Source: a virus | Reading direction: 5' to 3' (one strand) | Virus record (IMG/VR): IMGVR_UViG_3300010885_058378 | Coordinates: 62,001 to 126,000 of that record | Length of the DNA: 64,000 bases | In this document: one piece after another, positions 4,375 to 61,425 of the stretch | Numbering within the stretch: position 1 is the stretch's first letter | How the letters are laid out: every line of letters begins with the position of its first letter | Notes under the pieces: generated by a model | Database searches by the model: none | What the model was told of the DNA's origin: nothing | Seen by the model: the letters and a program-made list of their open reading frames with translations, nothing else | Position numbers and translations under genes: made by a program

Positions 4375-4403
4375 TAAAGATATTTAAACCCTTTTAAAGA
4401 TAT

Positions 4404-4430
4404 GGGGGTGCTAACACCACCCCCGTATTT
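4404..4430 (+). terminator. Rho-independent terminator after ssb
   Basis: A 7-bp stem GGGGGTG (4404-4410) pairs with CACCCCC (4418-4424) around a 7-base loop, followed by GTATTTTTATC. It lies 30 bases after the ssb stop and ends just before the glycosyltransferase ATG at 4441. Confidence 0.8.
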
Positions 4431-4440
4431 TTATCTTCTT

Positions 4441-32778: not shown

Positions 32779-32798
32779 CACGTTTCCTTATAGGGCTA

Positions 32799-43202: not shown

Positions 43203-46200
43203 TTAAGCTTTACCCATTGGTTTGTTGTTAGCGGATGAATTAAAGGCGCCTTCAGTAACTTTTCTATCATAGCTTGCAAAAGTATTTTGACTAGCATGGC
43301 GACCAGATAATTCTCCTGCTTGTGCTGCACTACTTACTATTCTATCTCCTTCTTTTCCGAATCCTAGAAAATCAACGACGTTCTTAACTTCGCCATGTAT
43401 ATTTAAAGTATTTGGCAAATTATCAGCAGATTGTGCAAACCCAGCTGTTGAATTACCAAAAGATTGGGTTGCATTAGCAAATGTTTGGCCGAAATTATTT
43501 AATGTTTCAGTACTACTTTGCATCATTTGACTATATGATTCCATTCCTGATTGGAGTGCGGTGCTTAGTTGGCCAACTGCTTCGTTCATAGCCTGTCCTA
43601 CTGCAGTGCTAATACTAGATGATATATCATTAGATACACCACTACTACCACCACTGCCTCCAGTAACTGGTCCAGCATTGGCATAATATTTGGGTGCAAC
43701 TATTCCACCATTGGCCAAATAGTTAACAATTCCACCTCTATTGAAATGGCCACTATTTATAGCATTAAGAAGAGGCATATGTTGCTGACTAGATTCTCTG
43801 TTAACAACAAACTCTCCAGGAGTTAGCATGGCTGGTACAGTATCTGTTCCCTGAGATAATGATGGAACTAATGCTCCATTATTAGCATATACTAAACCTC
43901 CAGAATTGTAAGTAGCAGCATCATATCTTGCCGGATCACTACTTTGTTGTTGTGCTTTTTTATATTCTGGTGACTGAGTATAGTGTAATGGAATACGTCC
44001 TTGCTCCGCTAAATCATTTGCTCTCTGTTTGAATCTTTGTGATTGTTCTCTATTAGCAATATCTATTGATCCTGCTTCAGTTCCAACCTTTAGACTTTCA
44101 GAACCAAAACCGATGCTTCCTCCAACAACAGCACCAGCAGCAGGACCAACCACTGGAACAACACTTCCAGCAGATGCTCCAATTGCGGCTCCCCTAGCAG
44201 CCGATTCCATTTGTGCTAATCTTTCATCTGTATTGTTTGATATTTCTTGATTAGCTAATTTACCTATTATTGAACCTCCAGAAGATGCTGAGCCAGATAT
44301 TGCTCCGAATACAGCCCTTGTTGGAGCGCTAATTCCTTGTTGTATAGCTTTTTCATCTTGTAGTCCTGCCATTGCTCCTCCTGCTATTGCTAACACTGGA
44401 GCCATTTTACCGGCTATTTGACCAGAGACTCTTCCTGCTGAAGACAAAGATGATGAGATCATTGGTGCTGCATTTGCTGCTGTATCTAATGACGCTTTAG
44501 AAATATCTCCAATGGCCTGAGTTTTATCTAGTGATGATTTTTCATTAGATAGTAATGTTTGAGTACCAGTTACAATATCGGCCATGCCTCTACCAACTCC
44601 TGCAACCCCTTTCATAGGAGCATTAGTAGCAAAAGTTTGAGCCAATCCTAATGCTGATGATGCTGTATCTAGAGTAACATTGCCTTCATATGCTGCTTTG
44701 CCAATATCACTTACATTTTTAGCTGTCGTAGTAGCCGTTTTAACGATAGCATTTACAGAGCCTCCATCGGCAAAATAACTTACTAGTCCTCCCTTGCTAT
44801 ATCCATGGAATTTCATTAATTGTTTTAGAATACTTTCTGCTCTCTTATTCCCCTTTACTTTGCTCATGTGCTGCATCAAGGTGCTTAATAGCTCATATGG
44901 AGCTTTTTTGATTTGGCTTGCAGAATATCCTTTACCTCCTGTTATAGCAGCTAATCCCTTTGGATCATCAACAAATGACTCGATTTGTTTCATTAATCCT
45001 GAAGATTTTAGCTTTTTGCCTCCAAAAGGATCAATCTTCATTCCGGCAGTTTTAGTTTGGAAAGAATGAGCCAATTCATGCTGAACTACTGATGTTTTGG
45101 CATTAGGATCCCTAAATACCATTTTGTTACCTGAAGTAACCATAGCCTCAGGATTTTTTACTGGACCTATATTCTTAGCAACTTTCTTTTGAGCCTCAGC
45201 TAGTGCCGTAGGATCAACAGATACTGATTGTGGAGTAGACTTATCGATAAATTCTGATAAGAACTTATCCCTTCTTGCTGGAGTAACATAATCAGCCAGA
45301 TCATTAGCTAGATTCTCTTGAACTTGTCTTATATTTACTGGATCAGTAACATTTATAACTTCTGGTAGTGGTCGTTTGGTCGGTAGTACTGCTACATCTG
45401 GTTTTGTTCTGGCCATAAATTCTTCAGCGGTAACTCTGGGCTTACTAGCTCTTTTAGCGGCCTTTGCTTCTTCAGCAAGTCTAGTATATTCTGCTGCTGT
45501 TATTTTGGGTTTGACTGGAGACCCTGATGTTGGCATAGTCAAATCAATATTTGATAATTTTTCATCCAATGCTCTGCTTCTTACAGCTTTGGCTTTTGCT
45601 GCTAGTCTACCATAATTACCATCATATTCTAATGGATTAATATCGTCTATGCTTCTTATCTTTGTAGGGGCAGACTCTGCGAATGTTACAGGCTTTGCTG
45701 GTGCCATATCCTTAAAAGGAGAAGTAACATTTGATCTATTAAGATTTGGTCTTGAATAATTTGGAGTTATACCTCTAACTCCTATAACATCACCCATTTG
45801 AGTAGCAACGTCTTGAACACCCTCAACAAAATTATTAACTACTCTTCCAGCTCCGCGAGCACCTGGAATTCTACCTCCCAATCTTCCTGCTCCTCTAGCA
45901 ACCCCCGTAATAGCTCTGTCTACTGTTCCAGCAGCCCTACCAACACTAGCAGCACCAGGTATTCTACTAGCAGCCCTACCAACACCAGAAACACCAGGTA
46001 TTCTACTAGCGACTCTTCCAGCAGCCCCTGCCATTCTACCGGCAGCATTAAATACTGCTCCTTCTGCATTGATTACTGCTCCTACGCCTTGAGAGGCTGC
46101 ATATCCAGCAGTTTGGAAGCCTGCTGTGGTAAAACCTAAATAACTATCCATTCCACCAGCCAACTCTACATTTCTAGCATCATTTCTTTGTAGAGCAGTT

Positions 46201-49200
46201 TCTGTTCCATTTTGTATTGGCCCCATACCAGCAACAGCTTGTCCAGCTTCAACAAAACTAGTTGCTCCAGCACCCATAGCTCTTAGTCCAACATCGGCAG
46301 CCGCAGAAGTTGCTGCAGAATAAGCCCCCTGTTGGTTATTTAGTCTGTTGCTGTTTGCAGTAAATGTTCTTGCTCTTATAATGGCAACATCTTGAGCAGC
46401 CGCTATCTCTTGAGGAGATGGCATTGGTCTGCCATTAGCTCTAGCCTCATCATACATATTTTCGGCTGTTCTGTTTCTTAAATTATTTTCATCTCCAATT
46501 TTAACAGCTGTATCATCTCCAGACATAGCATACCCAATACCTCCAACAATAGGAGATACAACTGTTGCAACTGCTCCGGCAGTTATATTTGCCGCCCCAT
46601 AAAGGGCGTCTCCAATACCCTGAGTTACTCCTCCAACATATCCTACTGCTGCCGTAGCAGGATTGCTACTATTTATATATAATGATGCTTGTCTATCTTC
46701 TTCAGCTTTTTGTTGTTGTGCTCTAACCTTTTCTGATGCAGTAACCTGTTGAGCCCCCTCAAATTGCGCTATTGCTTCACTATTAGCTTGATCCTGTAAT
46801 AATTGTTCGGTTGTTGGAACAACATAATTTTCAAGTTTTTCCATATACGGTTTTGGCATATATTTTCTTTGTTCAGTCCTGTACTGTTCTCTTTGATCTT
46901 CTTTAACTTTTCCTTCACTAAGCAATTGATTAAATTTATTGTCTATTTTGCCTGTTTGTTCATCTATTTTAGATCGATTTCTCTCATTAATTACTTGCTG
47001 TCTTCTTTGTTTCTTATAAGCTTCTCTATTTCCTTCATCATCTCTCCATGCTCCTGATTCTAATAGCTGATTAAATTCAACATCAAATGTTTGTTCTTGA
47101 GCTGCTATTTGTGCTCTTTTTTCTATTCCTATTTTTGTACTAGTAATAGCACTGTCTGCTTCTCTCTTTTTCTTGGTATCACTTGAAGTTGTGGCCGTTT
47201 GAATTGAAGAAGATAATCCTGGACTAGCAGTTGTTCTATAAACATTTTGTGTTTCTGCTTCTGCTCGTAATTTTGGATCATTACTATATTCCAATGGATC
47301 TGTAGCACCAGCATGTTGATAAGCTATTTGACTATTAGACAGCTGATTTGGATACTTTATCATTGCCTCAGTAGCTAGTGTATTCGATGGTGATCCAAGA
47401 GGAAAACCGAAAGAATCTCTGCGTGAACTTTCTCTATCTCTAGTTGTTTTTTGAGACTCAAACCTTGGATTAGGATCAATTCCATATGCACGATAGCTTC
47501 CAGCAACATAATCTCCAGGCAATGATACTCTAGGACTTGGAACCATTGGACCAATATTAACACCTAATCTTTCATCCTTATTCTTAATTTCTGGTGTTCT
47601 CAGATTAACAGGAGCATTAGTCTGAGATGCTAATCCTTGTCGAACGCCCGAAGAGACCGCAGGATCAGTTATATCAGGTCTTGCAGTAGTATACTGCTGT
47701 CTAATTCCCGATTCGATTGCGGCATTTTGTTGGGCAGCCTGTTGCTCATTGCTTGGTCTTGAGTAGGCTTCATTTATTCTGGAGGCCGTTGCTGAATCAA
47801 GACCGCTAGGATTTACTGCGTTGGGTCGCTGAAGGGCAGGCGATTCAGAAGTTTCAGATTCGGGATTGATAAGAGGATTAAGTCTATTGTATCTGTCTCT
47901 CTTTACTCTTTTTGATGCTGCAAGATTGTCTTCAACATCTCTGGATTGAATATTATCAAGTTTTTGAGATAATGTTCTTTTATAGTTTATAGTATCTAAT
48001 CGATTTTGTTGGTCAGGAGTTCTTTTTGATGGCGGAATATTATTTAAAGCCATTTTCCTGGTTATTTCAGATTCACTTAATCCATCAATTACGGCTTCTG
48101 AATAGCCCTGTTTTGTACGCAAAGCAGCATATTCTGTTTCTTCTTCTGAACTTCTTCCTTTGCTTCCTTTAAGCCATAATGATCGTCTTCGTGACTCTTC
48201 AGATTTAATTCTTTTTCTCTCATTGATAGTTTCTTGTGTTGGTCCAACATTTATTGCCGCTCCTCTGCCCCAAGGTATTTTTGTCATAATCGGTAGAGGA
48301 ACTGCTACTGGAACTGGTTGTTCCATAGGGCTTTGAGCCATTTGATTATTTGATGCTTCAGTTTCAGCAGCACTGGCTTTTTCAAATCTTTCTTTAGATC
48401 TTTTCTTTTCTTCATTATAAAAATTAACTCCAACAATACCAGAGTTAGGATCTTCCTTTATGCTGTCATATCCTGAATTATTAGCACTTCTGAGTTGTGC
48501 ATCAGCCTTTCTATTATTATAATTATCCCATCTATTTTGAAATTCTGGTTCATATTTTTTGGCTTCTGATTGTCTTTCATCCTCTGTCATACCCATCCAT
48601 CTACCATCACCTACCTGAGATTGTGCCCAACTAGATGATGTTCTAGAAACTACCTCATCAGGTCTTCTTCCAGTTGCCTCTGACATCATCCATGATTCTT
48701 TTTGAGCATCTATTCTTTCTTCTTTTCTTTTTTGTACTTCGCCACCATCTGCTAAATAAACCACTCCGCCCTTACTATAATTTCCACTATTAATAGCCTT
48801 CAATAGTGGTAAGTGTTCTGAGGTTGATCTTGCATTAATCACAAACTCGCCCGGAGTTAACATAGCAGGAACAGTATCAGTTCCTTGTGGTTGGAAATTT
48901 ACTAATTGACCTTCACTAGCATAAATTAATCCTCCGCGAGCCTTCGGAGGAGCAACTGGGGCGGCAACTCCGATATTTAATGGAACTTTAGCTCCGCCAG
49001 GAGCATTAATTCTACCCTCATTCATATCATTATTAGCCATGCTTGCTTCAACAGTTGTTCTAAGATCATCTATACTAACCTTAAGGTTGGCATTTGCTGA
49101 TACTAGAGCCTGCTGAGATTCTAATAAAGCCAACTCTCCTTGTGCCTTAGTAGCGTCAGCCTGCAATCCAACAGACTGTAAATACTTACCAGCAGCTTCT

Positions 49201-52200
49201 TGCATTGCGGGATCAGCTTTAGGATTTTCCATAGCAGCTATTGATTGCTGAACAAGAGGATTATTCATCATTCCACTCTCGATAGCCATACTCTTTGTTA
49301 ATTGTAGTTGTTGTTGTTTAAAATAATCAGCAACAGCTTGGTCAGCACTTACCCCAGGCTTTCCTTTACCCTGAGCATATTGATTTCTAATATTTAGCTC
49401 TTGAGCCGCTTTTACTCCAGGATCTTGTGATAGGGCCAGTGTTTCTTTTCTTTGATTGGCTAATACTGTGTTGCCAGCCTTAGTAGCTTCTCTTACGCTT
49501 CCTGTTTCTCTTAATGTTTGATTAAATGCCTTACGAGCATCTCTTTGATTACTAGCACCATTTAATCCTCCAGAAAGATTTCTTTGAAGTCTTATAAATG
49601 TTTTATTAAGTTTGTCGGCTTCTTCTGGAGTATTTGTTAGTAATGTATTAACAAAACTTTCTCTATTCTTCTGAAGATCTCTAACATTCTTTAAATCATC
49701 AAATGCTTTTTCTACTAATTCTGTGCTACTTGCTAATGTGTCTAAAGCTTCTCTTGTATCTCTTAATTGATCGTCTAATGATCTTAGTTGTATAGCAGAT
49801 TTTTTAAGTTCATCAGGATCGCTCATGCCCTGTCTTTTTTCTTCTACTGCTGTTCTTTGTGCTTGTAAGTCAACAATTCTATTTTTAATTCCACCAACAG
49901 AGGTTTGTCCACCGGCTAATCCGGCCACATCACCCATAACTCTTGCTTGTTTCTCACCATAAGTTTCGCCAACTCCGGTCATAACCTCTCTAAGATTTCT
50001 ATTCCCTTGGGTGCTAATATCTCTAGATTTCTTAAAATAATTCTGAGAATCTTTTGCTGCTTTACTAGCATCTCTAAGACCTTCGGAGAAATCGGCTAAT
50101 GCCCCTTGCTTAAACGATGATAATGCTTTTACTGCTTCAAGCGTTTTAACTCCAAAGGCCCCAAGAATATTATCAGCCTCTCCTAATCCTTCTCTAAAAG
50201 CGTCTAATTCTGCTTGAGGCGTATCATTTTTTTTCTTAGATTCTTCTGCTAAATTATTTATTCTTGTTTCTGCTTGTTTTTTAAGACTTGTCTTTTGTTC
50301 GTCTGATAAGTTTGTTTTATCTATTTGTTCATTAGTAGTTTTAATAGCCTCTGTTTTGGCTTGATCAACGTTCAAATTTGCATTAGTATTTAATTTTTCT
50401 GCTATACTTTTTGTTATAGCATTTGGTAATTGTTGTTGTAGTTGTGCTCCGCCTATTAACTGGTTCCTAGTTTTTTCATCAACTCCTGCTGTTGCAGACT
50501 GTAAGGCTTGATTAAAATCTTTTTCAGAATAGGCATTTGGATTTTCAAGAACATTTAATTCTCTTAGCTTGGGTCCACGATCTTGTGATTCTCCTCTTAA
50601 TGCTGATCTACTTTCTTCGGCTGATGATTTTCTAACATCAGATTCGAATTTAATTCTATTAACAGATTCACTAATAATACTTGATAATTTTTCAAAACTA
50701 GCTGCTAGTTTTCTGCCAGCTTTGTCTGCAGCCTCTAAAGCATCAGACATTTGTTTTGTTTTTATTGCAGATTGAACCTGAACATTTGTCAGTATTTTTT
50801 GATTAGCAACTTCATCTAATATTGCATCTTGTTTTTCTTTAGAAACCTTCTCATACCCACCTTCTTCCATAATTCTTGCTCTAACCGTTTTAAGAGCATC
50901 TTCATCTGCTAATACTAATGCTCTTCTAGCACCAATTAATTCTTTATCTGCTTGTATAGATTCTACACTAGCTCCAGTATTAATTTTTTGTGATATTAAA
51001 GCAAATGCCTTGTCTCCACTATCAGCATTTCTTTCAGCTATCTTGCTATCTAATTCATTAAAATCTTGAGTATCCATCTTCGGCTTTTCTGCTCCGGATA
51101 GAAACTCTGTCCATGTTCTGGTTTTACCCTTTTCATTTTGTGCAACCTTAGTCTCAGCAGAAACAGCTTTTAGAGATGATTCTGATGATCTAACAAGAGC
51201 CTTATCTAAAGCCTTTTGTAGATCTATATTACCAATATCTTTCTCAAAATCCTTGAAAGCCTTAGCTAAATCTTTTTCAGAAGCGGCCACTTCTTCAAAT
51301 CGTAAATTCTTTTCCATTTCTAGAGCAGCAGTTTTTTGTGCTCCAGTAAAATCAGTAAAATAATCAGTAGTAGCATAAACTACTGTTCCTAAAGCCGCTA
51401 ATCCGCCTAATAGAGGATTTATAGCCATTAATTGAGAAGCAGTAGTTAAACCAGTTGCTAGTGTTGATCCGGCCTGTTCAATAGCGGCACCCTTACCAGC
51501 AGCAGCAATCTTTCCTTCGTCTGTGGAAGTATCATACATTAGATTTGCAATATTTTTCCCTTGTCCACCAACTAATCCTGCCACCATACCAACGTCTCCC
51601 AAAGCTGTTCCAATTCCTTGAGACGCTGTTCCTGAGAAGTATCTTTCTTGAACAGCTTTTTTAATAGGACTATTTCTCCAATCAGTCAACCCACCAGCGC
51701 CAACTCCTTTTTCGCCCTGCTCTTTGGCCATTTCATTAATCATTTCTCTTCTTTTACCAACTTCTTCCTTAGCAAGAGAGAGTGCTTCTGATGCTGATTT
51801 GACTGAGACACCTCTAACAGTTCCAGCATTCTTATACTCTTCTAATCTCATTGCAATAAGCTGCTTATCCATCTGGGCCAATGTTTTACGATCAGTCATT
51901 GACTGAGAAATATAGCTTTGAATATCAGATCCACCAATACCCATATCCGATAATTCTGATTTTTTAATTCCTGTAACTTTTTGAGTAGCACTACTAAAAG
52001 ACATTTCTTTTATTTCTTTGGCCTGTTCATCTAATCTGCGTTTAACTTCTTCTTTAATTTGACTAGCATTACCAAATGATGGTCCGTATCCTCCTGGTCC
52101 ACCGCTAAGACTTTGTGTTAATTGCTTCTCCCTTTGTGCTTTAATACTTTTTTCTATCCTGTCGGCTTCTGTTAAAATGGCTTGCTGGGCACCACCAGAA

Positions 52201-55200
52201 CCAAGAACTTTACCCTTTTTTGATTCTTTTAATCCTGCTTCTAAAAATTGTCGTTTTACTACTGCTGTTTTAGCTTGATCTCTAACATTCTTTAATGCTT
52301 TTTCTGCTGCTATTATAGTGTCTATTGATGCTCCAGTAATCTTGAGTCTTTCAACATCCTTAGTCATTGCCTTTTCAATATCTTTATAAGATATGTCAGC
52401 TCCTGCCCCAACTTGCTCAAGAACTTTCTTAAAGCTTATCATACTATAACCAGCTTCTTCAAACCCTTTTGTTAATAGTTTAATATTATTAACTAGTTCT
52501 GATGAAGCTTCTATACTTTTACTATCAATAGTTTCTGGTCTGGTTTTTAATTTTTGAACTGCTGGTTCAGCAAAACCTTTTAATGCTTTCATTATTTCTT
52601 CGATACTAAAAACACTACCTCCAGTAGCAAATCTTTGAATTACTCCTCCACCAACTACTCCTCCCTTATTATAACCCTGTAATTTATCCGCTTTATTTAA
52701 TGTCTCTAACTTGCCATATCCTATTTTTTCTGCTGCTTTCTTATTAACAACAAATTCACCAGGAGTTAATAATGCAGGAACAGTGTCCTTTGATGATATT
52801 CCTGCTTGTCCTCCTTGAGCAAAGGTCTCGATATTGGTTGGCTTCAAGGGAGATGATCCAACATATTTTAATGCTAATCCTAGTGGTTTTTCAAAAAGTT
52901 TGGATTCAAATGAATTTATTAATTCGGGATCTCCAGATTGTATTCTGGACATAAGTTGACCCAATAAAGCCCCTTCTCTTACATCTCCTTCACTTCCGGC
53001 ATAAATAGATTTTCTTGATCCTCCAGGCAAGGTAAACTCTGTTCCATCTTCGGATTTTAATGTTTGAGATCCTTCTTGAACACGTACTCCAACCGACATC
53101 ATCCCAGCATCTGGATTTTTATCGAACTTACCTTTTAATCCTGTTTGATTTTCAGTAGGAGCATATTTATCTTTAAGAGTATCGTAATTATCATGCATCC
53201 ATTGTACCACTAGTCCTTTTTGTAATTCATAATCTAAATCATAAGTTTTTGGATCTAAAGTTTCATCAAAACTTAATACCATTGGCTTTCCTGATCTATC
53301 TCCTTGAGCAACAGTGAAGTTGCTTCCTCCATTAACTCTCATCTTAGCTTGTTGTTCTGCTTTATTCTTTTCTGTATATAAGTAGAATCCTTCTCCTTGA
53401 CCATATCCTTTAGCAATATTAGAAAGAGCGCCCTTTTCTTTAAAGCTTTTTAGAACGCTATCATCAACTCCAGTATTGCTTCCGTGATATAGTTTAACTT
53501 TTCCTCCAGTAGCATATCCTCTATTTTTTCTCCACATTTTTTCATCATTAGTTTTGGTCTCAAACTCTTTTGGCTTGCGACCTTGTTTTTCCATAGCCTC
53601 TTGTATTCTTTTTTGTTTATTAGCCTGGGCAAGTTCATATCTTTCTTGTTCTGGTGATGTTTTTTTAGATGGTATTAGTCCAAATCTTTTGTTTATCTCC
53701 CAGTCTGGAATAGCATAGTCTTTATATCTATTATCTAATCGTTCTTCTAATTTTGCTGTGAGTTCTTCTTGGCTCATGCCCAAAGTCTTTGCTCGTGCGG
53801 CAATATCGGGTGGAGAATATGATCCTCTTACCCAGCCACCGTCAGAAAGCATTTGTATGTCTTCTTTGACGGGTTCTGGAATTCCATATTGTTGTCTAAA
53901 ATGTTTTTGGAATTCTTCAACAGCCTTGCCTCTACTATTACTATCTATTGTTCTTTTAACTTCTGTTGGAATATCAGGATCGATACCAAATATTTTTGCT
54001 GCTTTAGGTCCGATTCCCATTGGGAAGTCAATCGGACGAGTTCTTAAAGCATCATCTAATATTGTAGCGTCTGCTGATCCAAAAATTTGTTCTAGTAAAG
54101 CTCCTTCAATATTACCTTGACCTAATGTTTCTCTTTGTTTTTTACTTAATTTCTTTGGTTCTATGCCAAGAAGTTTTGAAGCTCCTCCTACAATTTCTTC
54201 TGTTTGACCACTAAGATAATCAATTACATTTTGATATTGATTTGGTAATCCTCTCTGAACTATTGAAGCATCTATTGATCTTTCTTGTCCAGACGAATCA
54301 ACTCCAAGATTCCAAGTTTCTGGCCCTAGTAATCCAGTATATCCCAATGGATTTAAGCCTACTAATCCTAATTGTTTGGATGATAATACAGCATTAGTTG
54401 TTTCTGCTAAAGTTGTAGCCTTTTGAGTTCCTTGTGATTGTTTAAATTTATCTATTAAGTAATCTCTTGTTGCAATATAGTAGGCCAGTTTATCTGCTTT
54501 TGTTTCTGGTCTAAATGCAGAATTCCAGTATTTTAATTTTCCTCCTTCAGCGGTATCTCTTACTGTTTTTCCTGAGAATGGACCAAAACTTGCGTCATTT
54601 GGTAATCTGTCTGTTCCAAATCTTTTTAATATCTCTGTTCCTTGTGCTGGTAATATCCCAGAAGACTTCTTGACCTGAGTGGCCTTTTCTACATTTTTTA
54701 GTATAGCCTCTTCTAGTCCAGAAGGCATTGCTGTTGGAACTCCGCCAAATTCACCGGACATCTGTTCTGATAGTTGTGCTGCTATGGCTTCTTTTGTTAT
54801 GTCTGATGGTTGTGTCGATACGGCGGATTTTCTTGATGGGTCTAGTCCATAAATTTCTGGATATTTTGCAGATAGGGCGCTTATTATATTAAATGCTCTA
54901 TAGCCAAATGCTCCTTTAGATACTCGGTCTCTTTTGTCCCTTATCTGCTTAACTTGATCAGCTATTTCTGGATAATTTTTCTTTAAATCAGCACTAACAT
55001 TACCATAAGGACCACCAGGAGCATTTGATAATATTTGTGAAACCTCATCATTGGATCGTATTTTTTCTTGATCAACAAATTTTTGTATTTCTTCTATTAG
55101 CATAGGAACCATAGTGCTACGATTACGCAATTGTGATCTATTGCCCATTAATATTGATGCTATATCAGGATTCATTAAATTAGCCAGCGATTTATCATCA

Positions 55201-58200
55201 CCATGAAATAATGCGTCTCTAACTGCAGTAGCACTAATGTCTTCTATTCTAGGAATATCTTTAACATCTATTCCTGCTCTTTGGTATTTACCTAACACTT
55301 TATCGTCTTTACCAGAGGTTATTGCCATAGCTCCTTTTAATCTAGCAAATTTTCTTCTATCTCCATCGCCAATAACTTCCATAAATTTTGGTAAACTACC
55401 GGCAGGCTGACCTTGGGTGCTAATCATAGCATTTCCAAAATTCATTTTGCTGAATAAGGTCCTTATATCTGCTGGAAAAATACCATATCGCGCAGCATGA
55501 TCTATGCCTTCTTTACCAACAATCATTGGAAGATCAGGAGCAACACTAACAAGAATATCTTCTAAAGAAGAGCTTGGGTTCTTTGCTAACATATTTTCTA
55601 ATAAAGTATCTAACGCTCCTCTATGACCTCTTGTTGGTGGGGCAAAACCGCCCATATAAAATCCACCAGCCTGAACTATTTCTGGTAATTCATTCTCTTT
55701 TTTACGCCGTAAGCCAAAACCATCTGATTTTCTTCCTAATACTGTTGCCTTTTTTCCAAGCTCATCTCGTAATATTGTTTCTTCCAAACCAAAATCAGTA
55801 TCAGCTCCTCTTGTGGTTCCTGGTTTACGACCATATAGCCCTTGTCCAGTAGCGTCTCTTTGTTCTCTATTTGCTCGTAATTTTTCTTGTTCTGATTGAG
55901 TATTAGAACTTAATATATATGCTCTATCAACATCTCTTAAATAAGCATCAAGTTTGGATTCACTAGCAGTTGATGTTATAGCAATAACTTCATTAACTTT
56001 ATCAATATCTTCAGGAGTTAATATTTGGGAGCGAATTGTTTTTCTTAAAGAAGCATCATCATTGGCGCTAAATCCTGTAGCCAAACTACTTTTTCCACTA
56101 CCAGCAGCACCAGCGATTGCTGTTAGTCTTGACAAAGAACCAGTTTTTCTTGCTTTAGCAGATAGTTCTCCTAGTTTTGTTGTATAGTCACTAACATCGG
56201 TTATTCCTAGTTTTTCCATTGCTTTATCAACAATACTAGCATTTGCTGGATCTCTAAGAACATCAGTATCAATAATTCCAATTTTTCTTTCTACTTTTCC
56301 ACCAGCAGCATAAGTTTGTCTCTGAATACCAGCACTACCCAATAGATCAGTTAGTGTAGAATCTAAAGCTCCTTGAAGATTACTATCAAGTCTAGGATAG
56401 TTCTGAACTAGTGTTGTTAAAAATTCTTCTTTCCCACTATCTTCTATTCTATCAATATAAGATTGAGAAATACTATTATCTAATAATGCCTGATTAACTT
56501 CTGGATTTAATGGTTTAAAATCTTTAGCCTTTTTAATACCAAGAGATTTTGCCCAAAGAGAGGATGCGGCGGTGGCTGCTTCGGGAGTTTTAGCAGGCTT
56601 GTCTCCCCTGCTAATAGATCGATTTTGTTGTATAATTTGATCTAATGTTCCAACTTTGTATGAACGTCCATATACAACATCCGAACTGTTATAGCTAGAC
56701 TCTAAAGAATCAAATGCATCCGCTAAATCATTATTGTCTCCACCAAATAAAGAAACAACTCTTGATTTATATTTATCAAAACTCTCTGATGATCGTGTTC
56801 GTAATCCTTGAAATAATTGGTGGGTCATTTCGTGATAAAAAGTATCATTTTTTCTACCAGAAAGTCTTCCGGTGCTCATGGTGATCGCGCCACGGCCAGT
56901 AGCTTTAGCTGTGGTTTGCATCTGATCCATGGCAGTTAATTCTGCTTGGTTTTTTAATTTTTTAGTATTAGATATCTTCATTTGAAGATCATTAATCTCA
57001 TCCCAAGTTTGTTTAGCTAATGCTTCATCATATGAAAAAGATCCGTCATCAAAAGTTTTTACTTGTGTTTTTATTATTTTCTTCAATTCTTTTTGTTTTT
57101 CTGCTACTAATTTTTCATATCCATAAAGATCCTGGTCATTGGCCTCTGTATATCCAGAACTAGATAGGTCATAGCCAGATGTTCTTTTGGTGCCGGTGCC
57201 AGTTCTATCGAATTGGCCAAGACCTCTTAATCCTAAATCAGTAAAATCAATATGATTTGGTAGAGCTAATGATAAATCTTCTCTAGGCAGTCCTATGAAT
57301 TTAGCAAAGTCGCTCATTCTTCTATAAATAGCGCTATTAGCTAATTTACTCTTGAAAGAATCTGCAAACTGCTTTCTATCGAATGGCATTGAGTCAAAAG
57401 CTTCGGTTGCTTTTGCTTGATCCACTTTGAATCTAAAGTCTTCTGGATATTCCAAGAAGGATCCTCCACTAAAAGCTTTATCAACTTGTTCTTTATTTAG
57501 CTTGGCGTCTATTTCTTTGAAATAGGCATTACTAATTCTTTTGGGAAATGGAAAAGTTCCACTTCCAAATGATCGGGTTTCTTTTGCTTTTCCTCCGACC
57601 ATGAACCTGGCCAATCCTTTGGTTTCTTTCATCTTCTTTACAAAACCATTGTCATCCAGTGTAGGTATTTTTCTTGTTCGTCGTTGTATTTTGTTATTAA
57701 TAATTCTATCTGGATCACCTTCTGGAAGATAATTAAACATATAATCATCTCTAATGACTCTATCCCAAGATGATGTTTTCACATTCCCAAATCCTTCATT
57801 ATTTTGCATTATTTTTAATCTGTTAGCTAATTTATCAGATTGTATAATATCTTGTCCTGGTCCAGTTCCGTGCTCCTTGGCTACTGCTGCTTTAATTAGT
57901 GTATCATTTAATGATTGTAATTTAAGAAGGGGTCTTCCATAAACATCAACCTGATTTGTATCTTTAAATGCTTGCGATACATTTTCTGCTCCTAAATCTG
58001 TAATAAAGTCAATAGTTATTTGCTTAGCAGCTCTTGCCTTCTCTCTATTGCTAGCAGAGGCTGGTCCACCAGAAGCCCCATAAACTTCTCTTTCTTGTTT
58101 AGATAATCTCATTTCAAATGCATCAACACCATCTAGCCTTGAAGATGTTTTGAATCTACCTTGCTCTTTAGGGTATAATAGAGTTTTATTATCAGGTTTT

Positions 58201-60131
58201 TTATATTTTTTATTAAATAATTCTGGAGTTGGATCAACCTCAACCGCAATACTGTCTCCATCACTAGCTTTTAATTTACCCGCATTGGCTTTATTGCTTT
58301 TTGCAAAAGGTAGCGGATCTATATCATCATATAATTTACCTCCTTGAGTAACCATGCCAGCATTAGCAAATCTTTGTCTTTTTTTTGCTGATCCGGCCCT
58401 TATACTTCCACCGCCCCCATACTTATTCATATTATGAAGATTATCTGATCCTATAGTCTCAACAGCCTTTTTTCGTATCACAAATTCTCCTGGCTCTAAC
58501 ATTGCAGGAACAGTATCTCCACTACCAGTTCCTGGAACAACTCCACCTCTTGCAAATTTTCTAATTACTCCACCATTAGCTTTACCATCTGGTCCTCTTT
58601 TAACTCCAGTACTAAAACCACTAGCAAATTGAGTTAAAGCTTTGGCACCCTTAAATGCTGTTATAACAGCAAGAGCGGGTAATATTCCTTTAACAGCATC
58701 TGTCACTTTAATTAGTCCACTAGCTAAACTTAAAGCTCCTCTTATTAATGACTGAAAACCTTTTGATTGTCCTATTTCTCTGAATAGAGCAAAAAACTCT
58801 TGTCTTACTTTGCTAATCTGATTTGCTAAAGAAAGTTGTGCAGTTGCGGCGTCTTTCGCTAACGATCCTTGGCCAGCTTGAGCGGTCTTTAATGCTTCTT
58901 GAGCAACTGTGAACTGCTGAATAAGCGGAATAACTTTACCTATTTGTCGGAATCCACCAAGTTCTTCAACTATCTTAGAGAACTGAGCAGTTCTTGGATC
59001 AATTCCACTCAACCCCTTACTTAATAATTCAACAGCTTTATATGCTCCTACGAATTTACCTTCGGTATCAGTTAGATTAACTCCAAACTCTTTGAGAGAA
59101 TCAATTGTGCTTCCTCTCTGAATACGAGTAAAAATAGTTCTTAAACCAGTAGCAATAGTTTCAGCACTTTCACGAGTTGTAGCACGAACACTTGTAAACA
59201 CTGCTATAAATTCATTTAAAGCATCCTTACCTTCACTAACTCCTTTACTTGCAGTTGCAAATACGCTACCCGTTCTTTGAACAGCAGTAATAATGTCAGA
59301 AGATTCAACGGCGAATTTTGCAGCAACAGTATTTACAGCACCTAGTGCTCCTTCTAAATCATCAGCACTAATACCAAACTGTCTCATTAATGCGATACTT
59401 CCTTCTACTGTCTCATTCATATTATCAAATGATGGAGCTAAACTACTTAAAGCTAAAGCTCTTAATGCTTTTTCTGTTTCTCTCGCACTCAAACCAGCCT
59501 GTGCTAATGTAGAAGCAACAGAGGTTAAATCTTTAGAACTAACACCAAATGTTGTTGATAGATTTGTAATTTGTTCTTGTAGTTTGGCAAGACCGGTTGA
59601 CGATTCACCAGTAACTTGTTGTAGTTTAACTAACTCTTTATCATAATCAATAAATGCTTGAACACCCTGACTAATACTATTTGTTAATCCGTATATAACA
59701 CTAGTAACAGTACTAAATGCTACGAATCTTCTAATGGCAAGACCAGCCTGTTTACCGAACTCTTGCATCTCTGCTGATGCTGATCCAAGATCTTTTGCTG
59801 ATGAGGCTGATGCTTTGTTAAGTTTATTAACAGCATTAGCTGCCGCATTGATTTGTTGTGGAACATTATTTATTTTGACACTATTTATACTATTACCAAA
59901 AGCTTTGATAGCTGCCGAGGCAGCAGTAGCAGATGTTGTTGTTGAACCAAATGCTGCATTTAAGCCTTTTAGGGACGAGGACAAAGCCGCAACATTTTTA
60001 GTAACAGCAGGATCAAGCTTAAAAGTAATATTTGCATTAATGTTACCAAGATCTTTTTTAATTTGTGCAGCAATTTGCTTTACATTTGTTGGTCCTTGTA
60101 AATTCAGTTGTGCAGTTAAGTTGAATGCCAT
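43203..60131 (-). CDS. Giant tape measure protein with embedded enzyme-like domains, 5642 aa
   Basis: The gene sets tail length and probably helps DNA entry. Residues about 125-470 are the TP901-type tape measure core (AIRRFVAFSTVTSVIYGL, TTFGVSSKDLTSVASTLAQA, LRTIFTRIQRGSTIDSL). Four GG-DTVPAML-PGEFV modules lie at D539, D2449, D3752 and D5430. Between copies 1 and 2 are SNase-like (615-770), HExxH zincin (H1100), P-loop (1341), nucleotidylyltransferase (1490-1660) and ART-like (2210-2300) segments. Copies 2-3 enclose coiled coil and a hydrophobic segment near 2910. Copies 3-4 hold disordered Gln/Arg-rich sequence, GR-rich repeats (45828-46040) and a second zincin (H5018). The domain mix resembles phage polyvalent proteins that are injected with DNA; injection is inferred. 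Confidence 0.9.
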   Translation of the reverse strand: MAFNLTAQLNLQGPTNVKQIAAQIKKDLGNINANITFKLDPAVTKNVAALSSSLKGLNAAFGSTTTSATAASAAIKAFGNSINSVKINNVPQQINAAANAVNKLNKASASSAKDLGSASAEMQEFGKQAGLAIRRFVAFSTVTSVIYGLTNSISQGVQAFIDYDKELVKLQQVTGESSTGLAKLQEQITNLSTTFGVSSKDLTSVASTLAQAGLSARETEKALRALALSSLAPSFDNMNETVEGSIALMRQFGISADDLEGALGAVNTVAAKFAVESSDIITAVQRTGSVFATASKGVSEGKDALNEFIAVFTSVRATTRESAETIATGLRTIFTRIQRGSTIDSLKEFGVNLTDTEGKFVGAYKAVELLSKGLSGIDPRTAQFSKIVEELGGFRQIGKVIPLIQQFTVAQEALKTAQAGQGSLAKDAATAQLSLANQISKVRQEFFALFREIGQSKGFQSLIRGALSLASGLIKVTDAVKGILPALAVITAFKGAKALTQFASGFSTGVKRGPDGKANGGVIRKFARGGVVPGTGSGDTVPAMLEPGEFVIRKKAVETIGSDNLHNMNKYGGGGSIRAGSAKKRQRFANAGMVTQGGKLYDDIDPLPFAKSNKANAGKLKASDGDSIAVEVDPTPELFNKKYKKPDNKTLLYPKEQGRFKTSSRLDGVDAFEMRLSKQEREVYGASGGPASASNREKARAAKQITIDFITDLGAENVSQAFKDTNQVDVYGRPLLKLQSLNDTLIKAAVAKEHGTGPGQDIIQSDKLANRLKIMQNNEGFGNVKTSSWDRVIRDDYMFNYLPEGDPDRIINNKIQRRTRKIPTLDDNGFVKKMKETKGLARFMVGGKAKETRSFGSGTFPFPKRISNAYFKEIDAKLNKEQVDKAFSGGSFLEYPEDFRFKVDQAKATEAFDSMPFDRKQFADSFKSKLANSAIYRRMSDFAKFIGLPREDLSLALPNHIDFTDLGLRGLGQFDRTGTGTKRTSGYDLSSSGYTEANDQDLYGYEKLVAEKQKELKKIIKTQVKTFDDGSFSYDEALAKQTWDEINDLQMKISNTKKLKNQAELTAMDQMQTTAKATGRGAITMSTGRLSGRKNDTFYHEMTHQLFQGLRTRSSESFDKYKSRVVSLFGGDNNDLADAFDSLESSYNSSDVVYGRSYKVGTLDQIIQQNRSISRGDKPAKTPEAATAASSLWAKSLGIKKAKDFKPLNPEVNQALLDNSISQSYIDRIEDSGKEEFLTTLVQNYPRLDSNLQGALDSTLTDLLGSAGIQRQTYAAGGKVERKIGIIDTDVLRDPANASIVDKAMEKLGITDVSDYTTKLGELSAKARKTGSLSRLTAIAGAAGSGKSSLATGFSANDDASLRKTIRSQILTPEDIDKVNEVIAITSTASESKLDAYLRDVDRAYILSSNTQSEQEKLRANREQRDATGQGLYGRKPGTTRGADTDFGLEETILRDELGKKATVLGRKSDGFGLRRKKENELPEIVQAGGFYMGGFAPPTRGHRGALDTLLENMLAKNPSSSLEDILVSVAPDLPMIVGKEGIDHAARYGIFPADIRTLFSKMNFGNAMISTQGQPAGSLPKFMEVIGDGDRRKFARLKGAMAITSGKDDKVLGKYQRAGIDVKDIPRIEDISATAVRDALFHGDDKSLANLMNPDIASILMGNRSQLRNRSTMVPMLIEEIQKFVDQEKIRSNDEVSQILSNAPGGPYGNVSADLKKNYPEIADQVKQIRDKRDRVSKGAFGYRAFNIISALSAKYPEIYGLDPSRKSAVSTQPSDITKEAIAAQLSEQMSGEFGGVPTAMPSGLEEAILKNVEKATQVKKSSGILPAQGTEILKRFGTDRLPNDASFGPFSGKTVRDTAEGGKLKYWNSAFRPETKADKLAYYIATRDYLIDKFKQSQGTQKATTLAETTNAVLSSKQLGLVGLNPLGYTGLLGPETWNLGVDSSGQERSIDASIVQRGLPNQYQNVIDYLSGQTEEIVGGASKLLGIEPKKLSKKQRETLGQGNIEGALLEQIFGSADATILDDALRTRPIDFPMGIGPKAAKIFGIDPDIPTEVKRTIDSNSRGKAVEEFQKHFRQQYGIPEPVKEDIQMLSDGGWVRGSYSPPDIAARAKTLGMSQEELTAKLEERLDNRYKDYAIPDWEINKRFGLIPSKKTSPEQERYELAQANKQKRIQEAMEKQGRKPKEFETKTNDEKMWRKNRGYATGGKVKLYHGSNTGVDDSVLKSFKEKGALSNIAKGYGQGEGFYLYTEKNKAEQQAKMRVNGGSNFTVAQGDRSGKPMVLSFDETLDPKTYDLDYELQKGLVVQWMHDNYDTLKDKYAPTENQTGLKGKFDKNPDAGMMSVGVRVQEGSQTLKSEDGTEFTLPGGSRKSIYAGSEGDVREGALLGQLMSRIQSGDPELINSFESKLFEKPLGLALKYVGSSPLKPTNIETFAQGGQAGISSKDTVPALLTPGEFVVNKKAAEKIGYGKLETLNKADKLQGYNKGGVVGGGVIQRFATGGSVFSIEEIMKALKGFAEPAVQKLKTRPETIDSKSIEASSELVNNIKLLTKGFEEAGYSMISFKKVLEQVGAGADISYKDIEKAMTKDVERLKITGASIDTIIAAEKALKNVRDQAKTAVVKRQFLEAGLKESKKGKVLGSGGAQQAILTEADRIEKSIKAQREKQLTQSLSGGPGGYGPSFGNASQIKEEVKRRLDEQAKEIKEMSFSSATQKVTGIKKSELSDMGIGGSDIQSYISQSMTDRKTLAQMDKQLIAMRLEEYKNAGTVRGVSVKSASEALSLAKEEVGKRREMINEMAKEQGEKGVGAGGLTDWRNSPIKKAVQERYFSGTASQGIGTALGDVGMVAGLVGGQGKNIANLMYDTSTDEGKIAAAGKGAAIEQAGSTLATGLTTASQLMAINPLLGGLAALGTVVYATTDYFTDFTGAQKTAALEMEKNLRFEEVAASEKDLAKAFKDFEKDIGNIDLQKALDKALVRSSESSLKAVSAETKVAQNEKGKTRTWTEFLSGAEKPKMDTQDFNELDSKIAERNADSGDKAFALISQKINTGASVESIQADKELIGARRALVLADEDALKTVRARIMEEGGYEKVSKEKQDAILDEVANQKILTNVQVQSAIKTKQMSDALEAADKAGRKLAASFEKLSSIISESVNRIKFESDVRKSSAEESRSALRGESQDRGPKLRELNVLENPNAYSEKDFNQALQSATAGVDEKTRNQLIGGAQLQQQLPNAITKSIAEKLNTNANLNVDQAKTEAIKTTNEQIDKTNLSDEQKTSLKKQAETRINNLAEESKKKNDTPQAELDAFREGLGEADNILGAFGVKTLEAVKALSSFKQGALADFSEGLRDASKAAKDSQNYFKKSRDISTQGNRNLREVMTGVGETYGEKQARVMGDVAGLAGGQTSVGGIKNRIVDLQAQRTAVEEKRQGMSDPDELKKSAIQLRSLDDQLRDTREALDTLASSTELVEKAFDDLKNVRDLQKNRESFVNTLLTNTPEEADKLNKTFIRLQRNLSGGLNGASNQRDARKAFNQTLRETGSVREATKAGNTVLANQRKETLALSQDPGVKAAQELNIRNQYAQGKGKPGVSADQAVADYFKQQQLQLTKSMAIESGMMNNPLVQQSIAAMENPKADPAMQEAAGKYLQSVGLQADATKAQGELALLESQQALVSANANLKVSIDDLRTTVEASMANNDMNEGRINAPGGAKVPLNIGVAAPVAPPKARGGLIYASEGQLVNFQPQGTDTVPAMLTPGEFVINARSTSEHLPLLKAINSGNYSKGGVVYLADGGEVQKRKEERIDAQKESWMMSEATGRRPDEVVSRTSSSWAQSQVGDGRWMGMTEDERQSEAKKYEPEFQNRWDNYNNRKADAQLRSANNSGYDSIKEDPNSGIVGVNFYNEEKKRSKERFEKASAAETEASNNQMAQSPMEQPVPVAVPLPIMTKIPWGRGAAINVGPTQETINERKRIKSEESRRRSLWLKGSKGRSSEEETEYAALRTKQGYSEAVIDGLSESEITRKMALNNIPPSKRTPDQQNRLDTINYKRTLSQKLDNIQSRDVEDNLAASKRVKRDRYNRLNPLINPESETSESPALQRPNAVNPSGLDSATASRINEAYSRPSNEQQAAQQNAAIESGIRQQYTTARPDITDPAVSSGVRQGLASQTNAPVNLRTPEIKNKDERLGVNIGPMVPSPRVSLPGDYVAGSYRAYGIDPNPRFESQKTTRDRESSRRDSFGFPLGSPSNTLATEAMIKYPNQLSNSQIAYQHAGATDPLEYSNDPKLRAEAETQNVYRTTASPGLSSSIQTATTSSDTKKKREADSAITSTKIGIEKRAQIAAQEQTFDVEFNQLLESGAWRDDEGNREAYKKQRRQQVINERNRSKIDEQTGKIDNKFNQLLSEGKVKEDQREQYRTEQRKYMPKPYMEKLENYVVPTTEQLLQDQANSEAIAQFEGAQQVTASEKVRAQQQKAEEDRQASLYINSSNPATAAVGYVGGVTQGIGDALYGAANITAGAVATVVSPIVGGIGYAMSGDDTAVKIGDENNLRNRTAENMYDEARANGRPMPSPQEIAAAQDVAIIRARTFTANSNRLNNQQGAYSAATSAAADVGLRAMGAGATSFVEAGQAVAGMGPIQNGTETALQRNDARNVELAGGMDSYLGFTTAGFQTAGYAASQGVGAVINAEGAVFNAAGRMAGAAGRVASRIPGVSGVGRAASRIPGAASVGRAAGTVDRAITGVARGAGRLGGRIPGARGAGRVVNNFVEGVQDVATQMGDVIGVRGITPNYSRPNLNRSNVTSPFKDMAPAKPVTFAESAPTKIRSIDDINPLEYDGNYGRLAAKAKAVRSRALDEKLSNIDLTMPTSGSPVKPKITAAEYTRLAEEAKAAKRASKPRVTAEEFMARTKPDVAVLPTKRPLPEVINVTDPVNIRQVQENLANDLADYVTPARRDKFLSEFIDKSTPQSVSVDPTALAEAQKKVAKNIGPVKNPEAMVTSGNKMVFRDPNAKTSVVQHELAHSFQTKTAGMKIDPFGGKKLKSSGLMKQIESFVDDPKGLAAITGGKGYSASQIKKAPYELLSTLMQHMSKVKGNKRAESILKQLMKFHGYSKGGLVSYFADGGSVNAIVKTATTTAKNVSDIGKAAYEGNVTLDTASSALGLAQTFATNAPMKGVAGVGRGMADIVTGTQTLLSNEKSSLDKTQAIGDISKASLDTAANAAPMISSSLSSAGRVSGQIAGKMAPVLAIAGGAMAGLQDEKAIQQGISAPTRAVFGAISGSASSGGSIIGKLANQEISNNTDERLAQMESAARGAAIGASAGSVVPVVGPAAGAVVGGSIGFGSESLKVGTEAGSIDIANREQSQRFKQRANDLAEQGRIPLHYTQSPEYKKAQQQSSDPARYDAATYNSGGLVYANNGALVPSLSQGTDTVPAMLTPGEFVVNRESSQQHMPLLNAINSGHFNRGGIVNYLANGGIVAPKYYANAGPVTGGSGGSSGVSNDISSSISTAVGQAMNEAVGQLSTALQSGMESYSQMMQSSTETLNNFGQTFANATQSFGNSTAGFAQSADNLPNTLNIHGEVKNVVDFLGFGKEGDRIVSSAAQAGELSGRHASQNTFASYDRKVTEGAFNSSANNKPMGKA
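43707..43889 (-). repeat. TMP GG-DTVPAML-PGEFV module, copy 4
   Basis: QGTDTVPAMLTPGEFVVNRE, then MPLLNAINSGHFNRGG. Near the C-terminus, after zincin 2. Confidence 0.9.
44802..45194 (-). other. Zincin metallopeptidase-like domain 2 in TMP
   Basis: H5018-ELA-H5022 in VVQHELAHSF, with E5080 (YELLSTLMQHM) as the likely third ligand. The context E-L-L-S-T-L matches E-F-L-T-T-L of zincin 1, so the two are probably related. Confidence 0.65.
48732..48929 (-). repeat. TMP GG-DTVPAML-PGEFV module, copy 3
   Basis: QGTDTVPAMLTPGEFVINAR, then LPLLKAINSGNYSKGG. Nearly the same as copy 4. Confidence 0.9.
52632..52814 (-). repeat. TMP GG-DTVPAML-PGEFV module, copy 2
   Basis: SSKDTVPALLTPGEFVVNKK, then KAAEKIGYGKLETLN. 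It directly follows the ART-like segment. Confidence 0.9.
52812..53504 (-). other. ADP-ribosyltransferase-like domain in TMP (tentative)
   Basis: KLYHGSN (H2216) followed 30 residues later by GEGFYLYTEKNKAEQQAK (G2248-Y2252) is the H-Y pattern of ART-like toxins such as DUF3990-type. The catalytic Glu is not pinned down, so activity is uncertain. Confidence 0.5.
55152..55664 (-). other. Nucleotidylyltransferase-like (HIGH superfamily) domain in TMP
   Basis: GGFAPPTRGHRGAL carries T1500-R-G-H1503, and about 130 residues later EDISATAVRDAL (1632-1638) is the ISxTxVR motif. GDGDRRKFARL between them fits the middle of NMNAT-like phage domains. Confidence 0.75.
55722..56189 (-). other. P-loop NTPase/kinase-like segment in TMP
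   Basis: Walker A GAAGSGKS at residues 1341-1348 preceded by the hydrophobic strand LTAIA. A Walker B aspartate is not certain. The segment immediately precedes the nucleotidylyltransferase domain. Confidence 0.65.
56322..56954 (-). other. Zincin metallopeptidase-like domain 1 in TMP
   Basis: H1100-EMT-H1104 in FYHEMTHQLF, with E1235/E1236 (KEEFLTTL) as a candidate third zinc ligand about 135 residues later. Confidence 0.7.
57822..58289 (-). other. SNase (thermonuclease)-like domain in TMP
   Basis: D624-G-D626-S, then R665-LDGV-D670-AF-E673 (SNase numbering D21/R35/D40/E43; the R-D-E spacings 5 and 3 are identical), an NREKARAAK helix, and D-V-Y-G-R733-PLLKL matching R87. An insertion of about 25 residues lies between the first Asp pair and the Arg. 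Confidence 0.75.
58407..58574 (-). repeat. TMP GG-DTVPAML-PGEFV module, copy 1
   Basis: Residues about 520-575: FARGGVVPGTGSGDTVPAML, EPGEFVIRKKAVETIG, then N-x-L-x-x-M-N-K. It directly precedes the SNase-like segment. Confidence 0.9.
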
Positions 60132-61133: not shown

Positions 61134-61425
61134 ATCTATCTCCTTCTTTCTTTTTATCAAAGTTAAATTGATATTTTTGTTTTACTGTTCCGTTATTTCC
61201 AAAATAATTGCTAAGATCATCAATTGCTGATCGTGCTTGTTTATTTCCATTATTGAGTATGCTATTTCTAGCATATTCCCACATATCTTCAAATTCTTCA
61301 GCTTCTTTGCTATCATTTTCCCATAAATGTCCAAAAATAGCTTCGAATCTTGCTAGTGAGCCAATCATTGTGGTTTGAAATTTTTTATATACATTATCTA
61401 CTAATATTTTTTGTTCGTTTGTCAT
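61123..61425 (-). CDS. Small tail-cluster protein, 100 aa
   Basis: The protein is helical and charged (YKKFQTTMIGSLARFEAIFG, WENDSKEAEEFEDMWEYARN, ILNNGNKQARSAIDDLSNYF). The pattern L-A-R-F-E-x-x-F-G, W-E-x-x-R-N and NGNKQ-R looks conserved-type but I cannot name the family. Its stop overlaps the start of the 299-aa gene by 11 bases, so the two are coupled. Between two paralogous chaperone-like genes, it is a candidate partner. Confidence 0.6.
   Translation of the reverse strand: MTNEQKILVDNVYKKFQTTMIGSLARFEAIFGHLWENDSKEAEEFEDMWEYARNSILNNGNKQARSAIDDLSNYFGNNGTVKQKYQFNFDKKKEGDRYED

Follow-up and report, generated by a model that had tools for sequence, protein, structure and literature searches.

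Polyvalent proteins have been described in phages and conjugative elements as proteins for which delivery together with DNA and splitting by zincin domains are proposed (Iyer et al. 2017, PMC5512222; unless a main text is named, papers are cited here from excerpts). Their commonest domain is a zincin-like metallopeptidase, carried by about 36% of them (PMC5512222). In this work we analyzed a 64,000-nucleotide stretch of viral DNA, the window, which covers positions 62001 to 126000 of a 131,481-bp virus record (IMGVR_UViG_3300010885_058378). Its longest open reading frame (ORF), which lies amid tail genes, encodes a tape measure protein (TMP) of 5,642 amino acids (aa) in a single uninterrupted frame (positions 43203 to 60131, minus strand, as for every feature given below). 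An earlier note on this DNA had likened the protein to polyvalent proteins, and the comparison holds: several enzyme domains lie in one chain in a late-gene setting, two of them recognized by fold (a thermonuclease, SNase, and a nucleotidylyltransferase, NT) and the rest by motif. The protein is also large and combines a nuclease domain with putative zincin-like and ADP-ribosyltransferase (ART)-like domains, kinds of domain that occur in polyvalent proteins. It differs from them in that the set is built into a TMP, inside a segment bounded by repeats that we call the cargo bay; the words "tape measure" do not occur in the main text of PMC5512222.

Tme (PMC11126660) and Sle1 (PMC13277306) are TMP-related proteins that carry a functional domain and are loaded in a phage-tail-like particle; the effector domain of Tme is a nuclease, and the functional domain of Sle1 is exchangeable. 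Both belong to bacterial contractile injection systems and have one C-terminal functional domain, whereas the phage TMP in the window has several internal cassettes. DUF4157, the core domain of Tme (PMC11126660), was not listed in general Pfam scans of the window protein, and no search specific to it was made. Among phages, an enzymatic domain lies within the TMPs of SPbeta (YomI), Basilisk (gp47) and TM4 (PMC6145125; TM4 via PMC13277306). The enzymes in these proteins act on the cell wall, in contrast to the set of nuclease, kinase-nucleotidylyltransferase, protease-like and ART-like domains found here. YomI shares two further properties with our protein, as it is cysteine-free and belongs to the SPbeta-group proteins that head the cultured-phage matches to aa 1 to 590, with 24 to 25% identity in the core (best 15 of 57 records). 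A different likeness is offered by NadR (PMC9503650), in which a P-loop kinase is joined to a nicotinamide mononucleotide (NMN) adenylyltransferase. Among the matches listed in searches of open-license literature, none described a phage TMP with multi-enzyme intracellular cargo. A survey of mosaicism in phage proteins stated that for tape measures it could confirm no case that was both genuine and recent (PMC10684548); the loci studied here show clean presence or absence of cassettes and their separate divergence.

We consider it probable that this TMP has turned into a combinatorial polyvalent protein whose exchangeable cargo would leave by way of the tail; of this reading, delivery and activity are inferred, as they were in the earlier note. 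The protein itself is a TMP. Its core (aa 185 to 391, positions 58959 to 59579) matches PhageMin_Tail with an E-value of 7.4e-27, and PHROG TMP profiles match it at best with 1e-29, which bears out the tape measure core named in the earlier note. Over aa 1 to 500 the identity to two relatives, L003 and L004, is 62 to 91% per 100 aa.

The plan of the protein is marked by a repeat of about 73 aa, the PGEFV repeat (pattern '..GG.I..[FY]A.GG.V..GTDTVPAMLTPGEFVIN..A..'), which a repeat hidden Markov model (HMM) detects in four copies in the window TMP, each with an E-value of at most 2e-23. R1 (aa 510 to 580, positions 58392 to 58604, E-value 8e-27) opens cargo bay 1 and R2 (aa 2422 to 2496, positions 52644 to 52868, E-value 2e-23) closes it, and we define the bay as the segment between them (aa 581 to 2421). 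It is followed by a ruler-like segment from R2 to R3 (aa 2497 to 3723, positions 48963 to 52643), by R3 itself (aa 3724 to 3793, positions 48753 to 48962, E-value 6e-27), by a second variable segment (aa 3794 to 5400, positions 43932 to 48752), which has 8 to 28% identity per 100 aa to L003 and L004, and by R4 (aa 5401 to 5472, positions 43716 to 43931, E-value 9e-26). A sub-threshold match to HEPN_AbiV was seen in the second variable segment, at aa ~4391 to 4490 (E-value 0.0027; 18.3 bits against a cutoff of 27.1). In cultured phages, matches to aa 480 to 2480 came from 34 records and were confined to aa ~480 to 606 or ~2435 to 2480, that is, to PGEFV repeats and their flanks.

The bay varies far more in length than the ruler-like segment. 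We analyzed 69 of 73 loci, leaving out L089 to L092 (25 to 28% identity); with earlier loci and the window there were 85 TMP sequences, all counted from stop to stop except that of the window. Without 13 repeat fetches there were 72, and removal of 22 more (7 that had one repeat or none, 2 with an open 5' end and 13 duplicates) left 50 nonredundant TMPs, window included, for lengths and cysteine counts. The bays of L025 and L030, mis-split by a weak internal repeat, were set right with a stricter cutoff. Bay length ranges from 93 to 2,250 aa (median, 1,046; coefficient of variation [CV], 0.57), and the R2-R3 length, measurable in 40 TMPs, from 345 to 1,582 aa (median, 1,170; CV, 0.17); the spreads differ with a p value of 1.9e-5 (Brown-Forsythe test on log lengths in the 40 TMPs). 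The 15 complete TMPs extend from 1,962 aa with a bay of 275 aa to 5,989 aa, stop to stop, with a bay of 2,046 aa.

What does the bay contain? A census in 58 TMPs, a set that includes the window and from which duplicates only had been removed, found block D (described below) in 46, a P-loop domain in 23, an NT domain in 23, a first zincin-like cassette (Zn1) in 15, SNase in 13, an ART-like cassette in 7 and a second zincin-like cassette (Zn2) in 2; these counts are a lower bound, as many ORFs run off the end of their locus. The SNase cassette of the window (aa ~619 to 759, positions 57855 to 58277) is recovered by fold, as the earlier note had predicted. In an AlphaFold2 (AF2) model of aa 585 to 1285 (model 1; 24 sequences; predicted local distance difference test [pLDDT], 75.6) this region aligns by VIA-align with staphylococcal nuclease (2snm) at Z 9.6 and a root mean square deviation (rmsd) of 2.8 over 98 residues. 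All 50 VIA-align matches listed for the model are SNase, and SNase structures are listed first by Foldseek against the PDB (best E-value, 0.067). Of the motif residues, D670 is present in all 13 rows and R665 and E673 in 12 each, and R733 is kept in every row that extends that far (8/8).

Downstream lies Zn1 (HExTH; aa 850 to 1272, positions 56316 to 57584). Its HExxH motif and a downstream glutamate, E1236, are kept in 15/15 homologues, and the block is mostly helical and confidently folded in model 1 (AF2 block means mostly at least 90). The motif lies in model helix 511-529 and the glutamate in helix 639-659, an arrangement in keeping with the two helices that PMC5512222 describes for polyvalent zincins. 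HExxH occurs by chance at a mean of 0.0055 per shuffle of the window protein, and two copies were seen in 0 of 2,000 shuffles. A zincin identity of Zn1, which rests on the motif, is plausible. Zn2 (aa 4862 to 5115, positions 44787 to 45548) has 78% identity to its counterpart in L006; this second zincin of the earlier note is found again as a motif only, HELAH at aa 5018.

The following two domains were modeled together (model 2; aa 1276 to 2440; 27 sequences; pLDDT, 66.7). The P-loop kinase domain (aa 1281 to 1477, positions 55701 to 56291) resembles zeta toxin: aa ~1282 to 1483 align with 6eph at Z 8.1 and an rmsd of 4.1 over 152 residues, a borderline value, since a Z of about 8 is near the level that the tool calls common. 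The Walker A glycine and lysine are kept in 23 of 24 rows. The loose P-loop pattern has a mean of 0.49 per shuffle and is not significant taken alone; the P-loop of the earlier note is supported by the fold comparison at the borderline level just given. The HIGH-type NT domain (aa 1480 to 1684, positions 55080 to 55694) is recovered by fold, again in agreement with that note; aa ~1487 to 1677 align at Z 10.9 both with NadM 2qjo (rmsd 3.5 over 163 residues) and with PPAT 7yyb (2.7 over 143). The GH residues are present in 22/23 rows and those of ISxTxxR in 22 to 23 of 23. NadR 6gzo aligns with the NT domain at Z 8.0. As in NadR, a P-loop kinase and an NMNAT-fold nucleotidylyltransferase share one chain, in all 23 TMPs that have either domain. 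In NadR the nucleotidylyltransferase comes first and the ribosylnicotinamide kinase second; the order is reversed here, with the kinase first in 23/23, and the kinase here resembles zeta toxin. PDB profiles gave weak matches to the P-loop/NT region, the best to the UPF0348 protein 3gmi (E-value, 0.0019 to 0.0033), and a search for the kinase-NT unit in plasmids at an E-value of ≤0.01 gave no match.

The commonest cassette, block D (aa 1884 to 2080, positions 53892 to 54482), was absent from the list in the earlier note. Its pattern in the window, 'IEGALLEQ...RPIDFPMG...IPTEVKRT', has the residues E2014, D2035 and E2057-x-K2059 and, as we take it, fits the PD-(D/E)XK catalytic motif E...D...(D/E)xK. 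The residues are conserved: of 50 rows, 46 have the first Glu, all 50 the Asp, 49 an acidic residue (Glu or Asp) at the start of (D/E)xK, and 41 the Lys. A first profile of the whole block (43/58 TMPs) had drifted N-terminally into HAD-like sequence and was rebuilt on the C-terminal half, which gave the 46/58. Sequence with the motif 'FVDDD.RNI', HAD-like as judged by eye, stands directly before block D in several relatives, and 1 of the 37 bays scanned matches a HAD family in NCBIfam.

The last cassette before R2 (aa 2209 to 2425, positions 52857 to 53507) is the ART-like one, present in 7/58 TMPs. Its residues H2216 and Y2250 are kept in 7/7 members and E2386 in 6/7; the profile matches, to DUF3990 (best E-value, 0.026; 4/7 members) and ART-PolyVal (best E-value, 0.29; 2/7), stay below the Pfam cutoffs. 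We regard its identity as an ART, resting on the motif, as plausible.

Profile scans with Pfam, PADLOC and NCBIfam covered the 37 of the 50 bays that have at least 600 aa. At an E-value of ≤0.01, Pfam recognized HIGH_NTase1_ass (PF16581) in 11/37, ADPrib_exo_Tox in 3/37 (best E-value, 7e-10) and SNase in 1/37 (0.0055), and PADLOC gave two single-member matches (E-values, 0.0025 to 0.0027). The bay of the window itself had no Pfam, PADLOC or NCBIfam match at an E-value of ≤0.01, Pfam and PHROGs giving sub-threshold rows only for its cargo, and PDB profile searches with the SNase-Zn1 stretch, Zn1, block D and the ART-like cassette yielded nothing useful. Where the blocks could be resolved they are not extended coiled coil, the outcome that would have spoken against the earlier note, for comparison retrieved the SNase and NT folds and the model of the zincin block is a confident one.

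Comparison of the relatives shows that cassettes have been independently gained, lost and reordered, some of them at short GG joints. In L005 and L006, which have no Zn1, the SNase cassette passes into the P-loop cassette through a single GGK joint, 'GLAKFMVGGKVERKI'; at the same place the window has 'GLARFMVGGKA', then Zn1 and then 'YAAGGKVERKI'. With a single joint in the two relatives and a joint on either side of Zn1 in the window, one whole cassette is cleanly present or absent. Zn1 also changes place: in 6 TMPs it precedes the P-loop, in 9 it comes after block D. L006 lacks the ART-like cassette, and L003 has in the place of this cassette other sequence with an HESFH motif and, by eye, a HAD-like 'DFDDTL'. 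As a separate observation, L005 (aa ~1790 to 2036) and L006 (aa ~1664 to 1915) share a near-identical extra cassette, unlike the ART-like cassette of the window, which may be among those behind the three ADPrib_exo_Tox matches.

The divergence of synonymous sites (dS, by NG86) also separates cassettes from backbone. Between the window and L006, dS is 1.45 in the core and 1.34 in the ruler, as opposed to 0.52 in P-loop/NT, 0.49 in block D and 0.51 in Zn2. Between the window and L005, it is 0.35 in the core, 0.41 in the ruler, 0.51 in P-loop/NT and 0.37 in block D, as opposed to 1.99 in SNase and 0.79 in the ART-like cassette. Values above 1 are near saturation and the contrast alone counts; this contrast within pairs means that, inside a single gene, cassettes and backbone differ in their history. 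In these two pairs, the closest examined, the ratio of nonsynonymous to synonymous divergence (dN/dS) of the cargo is 0.08 to 0.29, which indicates purifying selection.

A second property unites bay and backbone. The window TMP has no cysteine in its 5,642 aa, and among the 50 TMPs none of the 53,770 bay residues is a cysteine, with 2 in the 128,837 residues outside the bays; all 85 sequences, duplicates included, have 3 in 297,543. By comparison, cysteine makes up 1.08% (1,610 of 149,640 residues) of the ORFs of 151 aa or more that lie upstream of the TMPs in 58 loci (these are mechanical ORF calls, some of which may be spurious), and the 26 other window ORFs counted have 0.3 to 4%. In the ratio of bay to neighbor composition cysteine is lowest, at 0.00, followed by Trp (0.36) and His (0.45). 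Controls came from 10 of the 34 cultured-phage records and YomI, with 2 to 6 neighbors per phage chosen by us; 8 of the 11 control proteins are annotated as tape measures, and those of Lumi, Bellamy (gp12) and S-SM2 (ORF 12) are not. In the 10 control proteins other than YomI, which are TMPs or TMP-like, there are 4 cysteines in 17,029 residues, versus 88 in 15,747 (0.56%) in the selected neighbors, and YomI has 0 in 2,285, giving 4 in 19,314 for the 11 proteins. It thus seems common for TMPs to have almost no cysteine, and the enzymes in the bay seem to obey this constraint of the ruler. The simplest cause would be passage of the whole chain, unfolded or narrowly confined, through the tail and the oxidizing periplasm. 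Among the matches listed in a literature search on cysteine-free TMPs, none mentions "tape measure protein."

In outline, a cargo bay with a PGEFV repeat at either end lies between the conserved N-terminal core and a ruler segment of fairly constant length, and phages load this bay with exchangeable enzyme cassettes that are connected by short 'FA.GG' linkers. In the window the cargo consists of an SNase cassette, a zincin-like one, a P-loop kinase with a nucleotidylyltransferase, a PD-(D/E)XK-like block and an ART-like cassette. We hypothesize that the protein works as follows. The tail would be assembled with the TMP including its bay. Upon ejection the chain would come out of the tube together with the DNA or ahead of it and pass via the periplasm to the cytoplasm, where the cargo would fold inside the host, and the zincin-like domain might split the cassettes apart, as proposed for polyvalent proteins. 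Early in infection the nucleases could then target nucleic acid of the host or a competing one, the kinase-nucleotidylyltransferase could alter the pools of nucleotides or of NAD, and the ART could modify host proteins. We give about even chances to the wider proposal that the TMPs of a widespread uncultivated phage group form a combinatorial injection platform, in which the ruler that opens the cell would also deliver, from a cysteine-free, repeat-bounded bay with cassettes swapped at short GG joints, a changeable set of pre-made nuclease, kinase-nucleotidylyltransferase, protease and ADP-ribosyltransferase effectors against the host defenses of the first minutes.

Several observations weigh against this interpretation. 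A tail tube is about 4 nm wide, and a globular bay of about 1,840 aa would be hard to fit into it folded. Whole-model Foldseek searches of the PDB with models 1 and 2 gave no match at an E-value of ≤0.001. For Zn1, a zincin fold was not among the matches listed for model 1 by VIA-align, where SNase fills the list, by Foldseek or in a viral structure library, and the profile searches gave no zincin profile. Likewise, the matches listed for model 2, mostly nucleotidylyltransferases, include neither an ART fold nor a PD-(D/E)XK fold for block D, whose AF2 block means are only 33 to 76 and which Pfam and PDB profile searches did not recognize either. Cultured-phage matches, in a search that covered aa 1 to 2480, were limited to the core, the repeats and the repeat flanks. 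The neighbors are cysteine-poor as well in 2 of the 10 control phages (CN1A, 0 in 1,170; Lumi, 1 in 939), and the absence of cysteine could have other causes. The remaining adverse points, a correlation of segment lengths and signs of decay in some cassettes, bear on two of the alternatives below.

The cargo could act in the virion or the envelope, in proteolytic maturation of the TMP, in opening of the tip or as a periplasmic nuclease, and not in the host cytoplasm. The known TMP enzymes are wall hydrolases (PMC6145125, PMC13277306), processing of polyvalent proteins has been proposed as the role of their zincins (PMC5512222), and the periplasm suits cysteine-free proteins. However, ATP or NAD would be required by the kinase-nucleotidylyltransferase and by the ART-like domain, a requirement that suggests the cytoplasm, and none of the three Pfam families that match the 37 bays at an E-value of ≤0.01 is a peptidoglycan hydrolase. 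We regard a site of action in the virion or the envelope as unlikely.

Less likely again is that the protein is simply a very long ruler whose extra length sets a very long tail, with incidental domains. TMP length often tracks tail length, as in PBC4 with 2,251 aa and 430 nm (PMC6145125), and 5,642 aa could mean a tail of about 1 micrometer; the same source also has tail lengths out of step with the size of the TMP gene. Bay and R2-R3 lengths correlate (r = 0.57), so that bay and ruler do not vary in full independence. However, the R2-R3 length is far less variable than the bay, the bay holds enzyme folds and conserved motif residues, and cassettes come and go among relatives with similar cores.

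That the cassettes are decaying or decoy recombination remnants without function is very improbable: Thr replaces the motif Lys in 9/50 block D rows (L018, L028, L039, L040, L043, L053, L059, L064 and L087; possibly an inactive or repurposed subfamily, to judge by the motif), 5/13 SNase matches are partial, reaching the N-terminal part only, and dN/dS of the cargo rises to 0.55 in more distant pairs, but the low ratios in the two closest pairs, the central Asp in 50/50 block D rows, the HExxH in 15/15 Zn1 rows and the cysteine-free bays speak against it. The combinatorial polyvalent TMP remains our preferred explanation.

Some features around the TMP gene may be recorded here. Directly upstream, a 308-aa ORF (positions 60234 to 61160) has an acidic 'DEEG' repeat and, by eye, strong similarity to sequences in L003 and L004; a cultured-phage search at an E-value of ≤1e-5 gave no match. 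A frameshifted chaperone at this place was considered and dropped, since the ORF starts at its own ATG. Some of the ORFs after the TMP have fn3, FGE-sulfatase-type or minor-tail matches. Of two giant ORFs in the tail region, one of 2,576 aa (positions 12907 to 20637) has no Pfam match at an E-value of ≤0.01, and one of 2,140 aa (positions 20637 to 27059) has no PHROG match at an E-value of ≤0.001. The ORFs at positions 29101 to 32781 and 39742 to 43200 contain an FGE-sulfatase-type domain (E-values, 8e-12 and 3e-11, respectively) and are perhaps lectin-like receptor-binding parts. L093, the only relative among 75 pattern matches in genome contigs, is a 5.3-kb contig in an alphaproteobacterial metagenome-assembled genome, with a TMP core that is 76% identical; it gives a weak hint at the host and is possibly a binning artifact.

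In summary, this TMP would join two ideas so far held apart, that of polyvalent proteins, which would ride in heads or be injected with DNA, and that of the tape measure, which is ejected from the tail. It may represent a natural modular chassis for protein delivery with a simple composition rule for what may pass, and the absence of cysteine may be a general and usable rule for tape measures. The proposal makes testable whether siphophages deliver pre-made enzymes ahead of gene expression.

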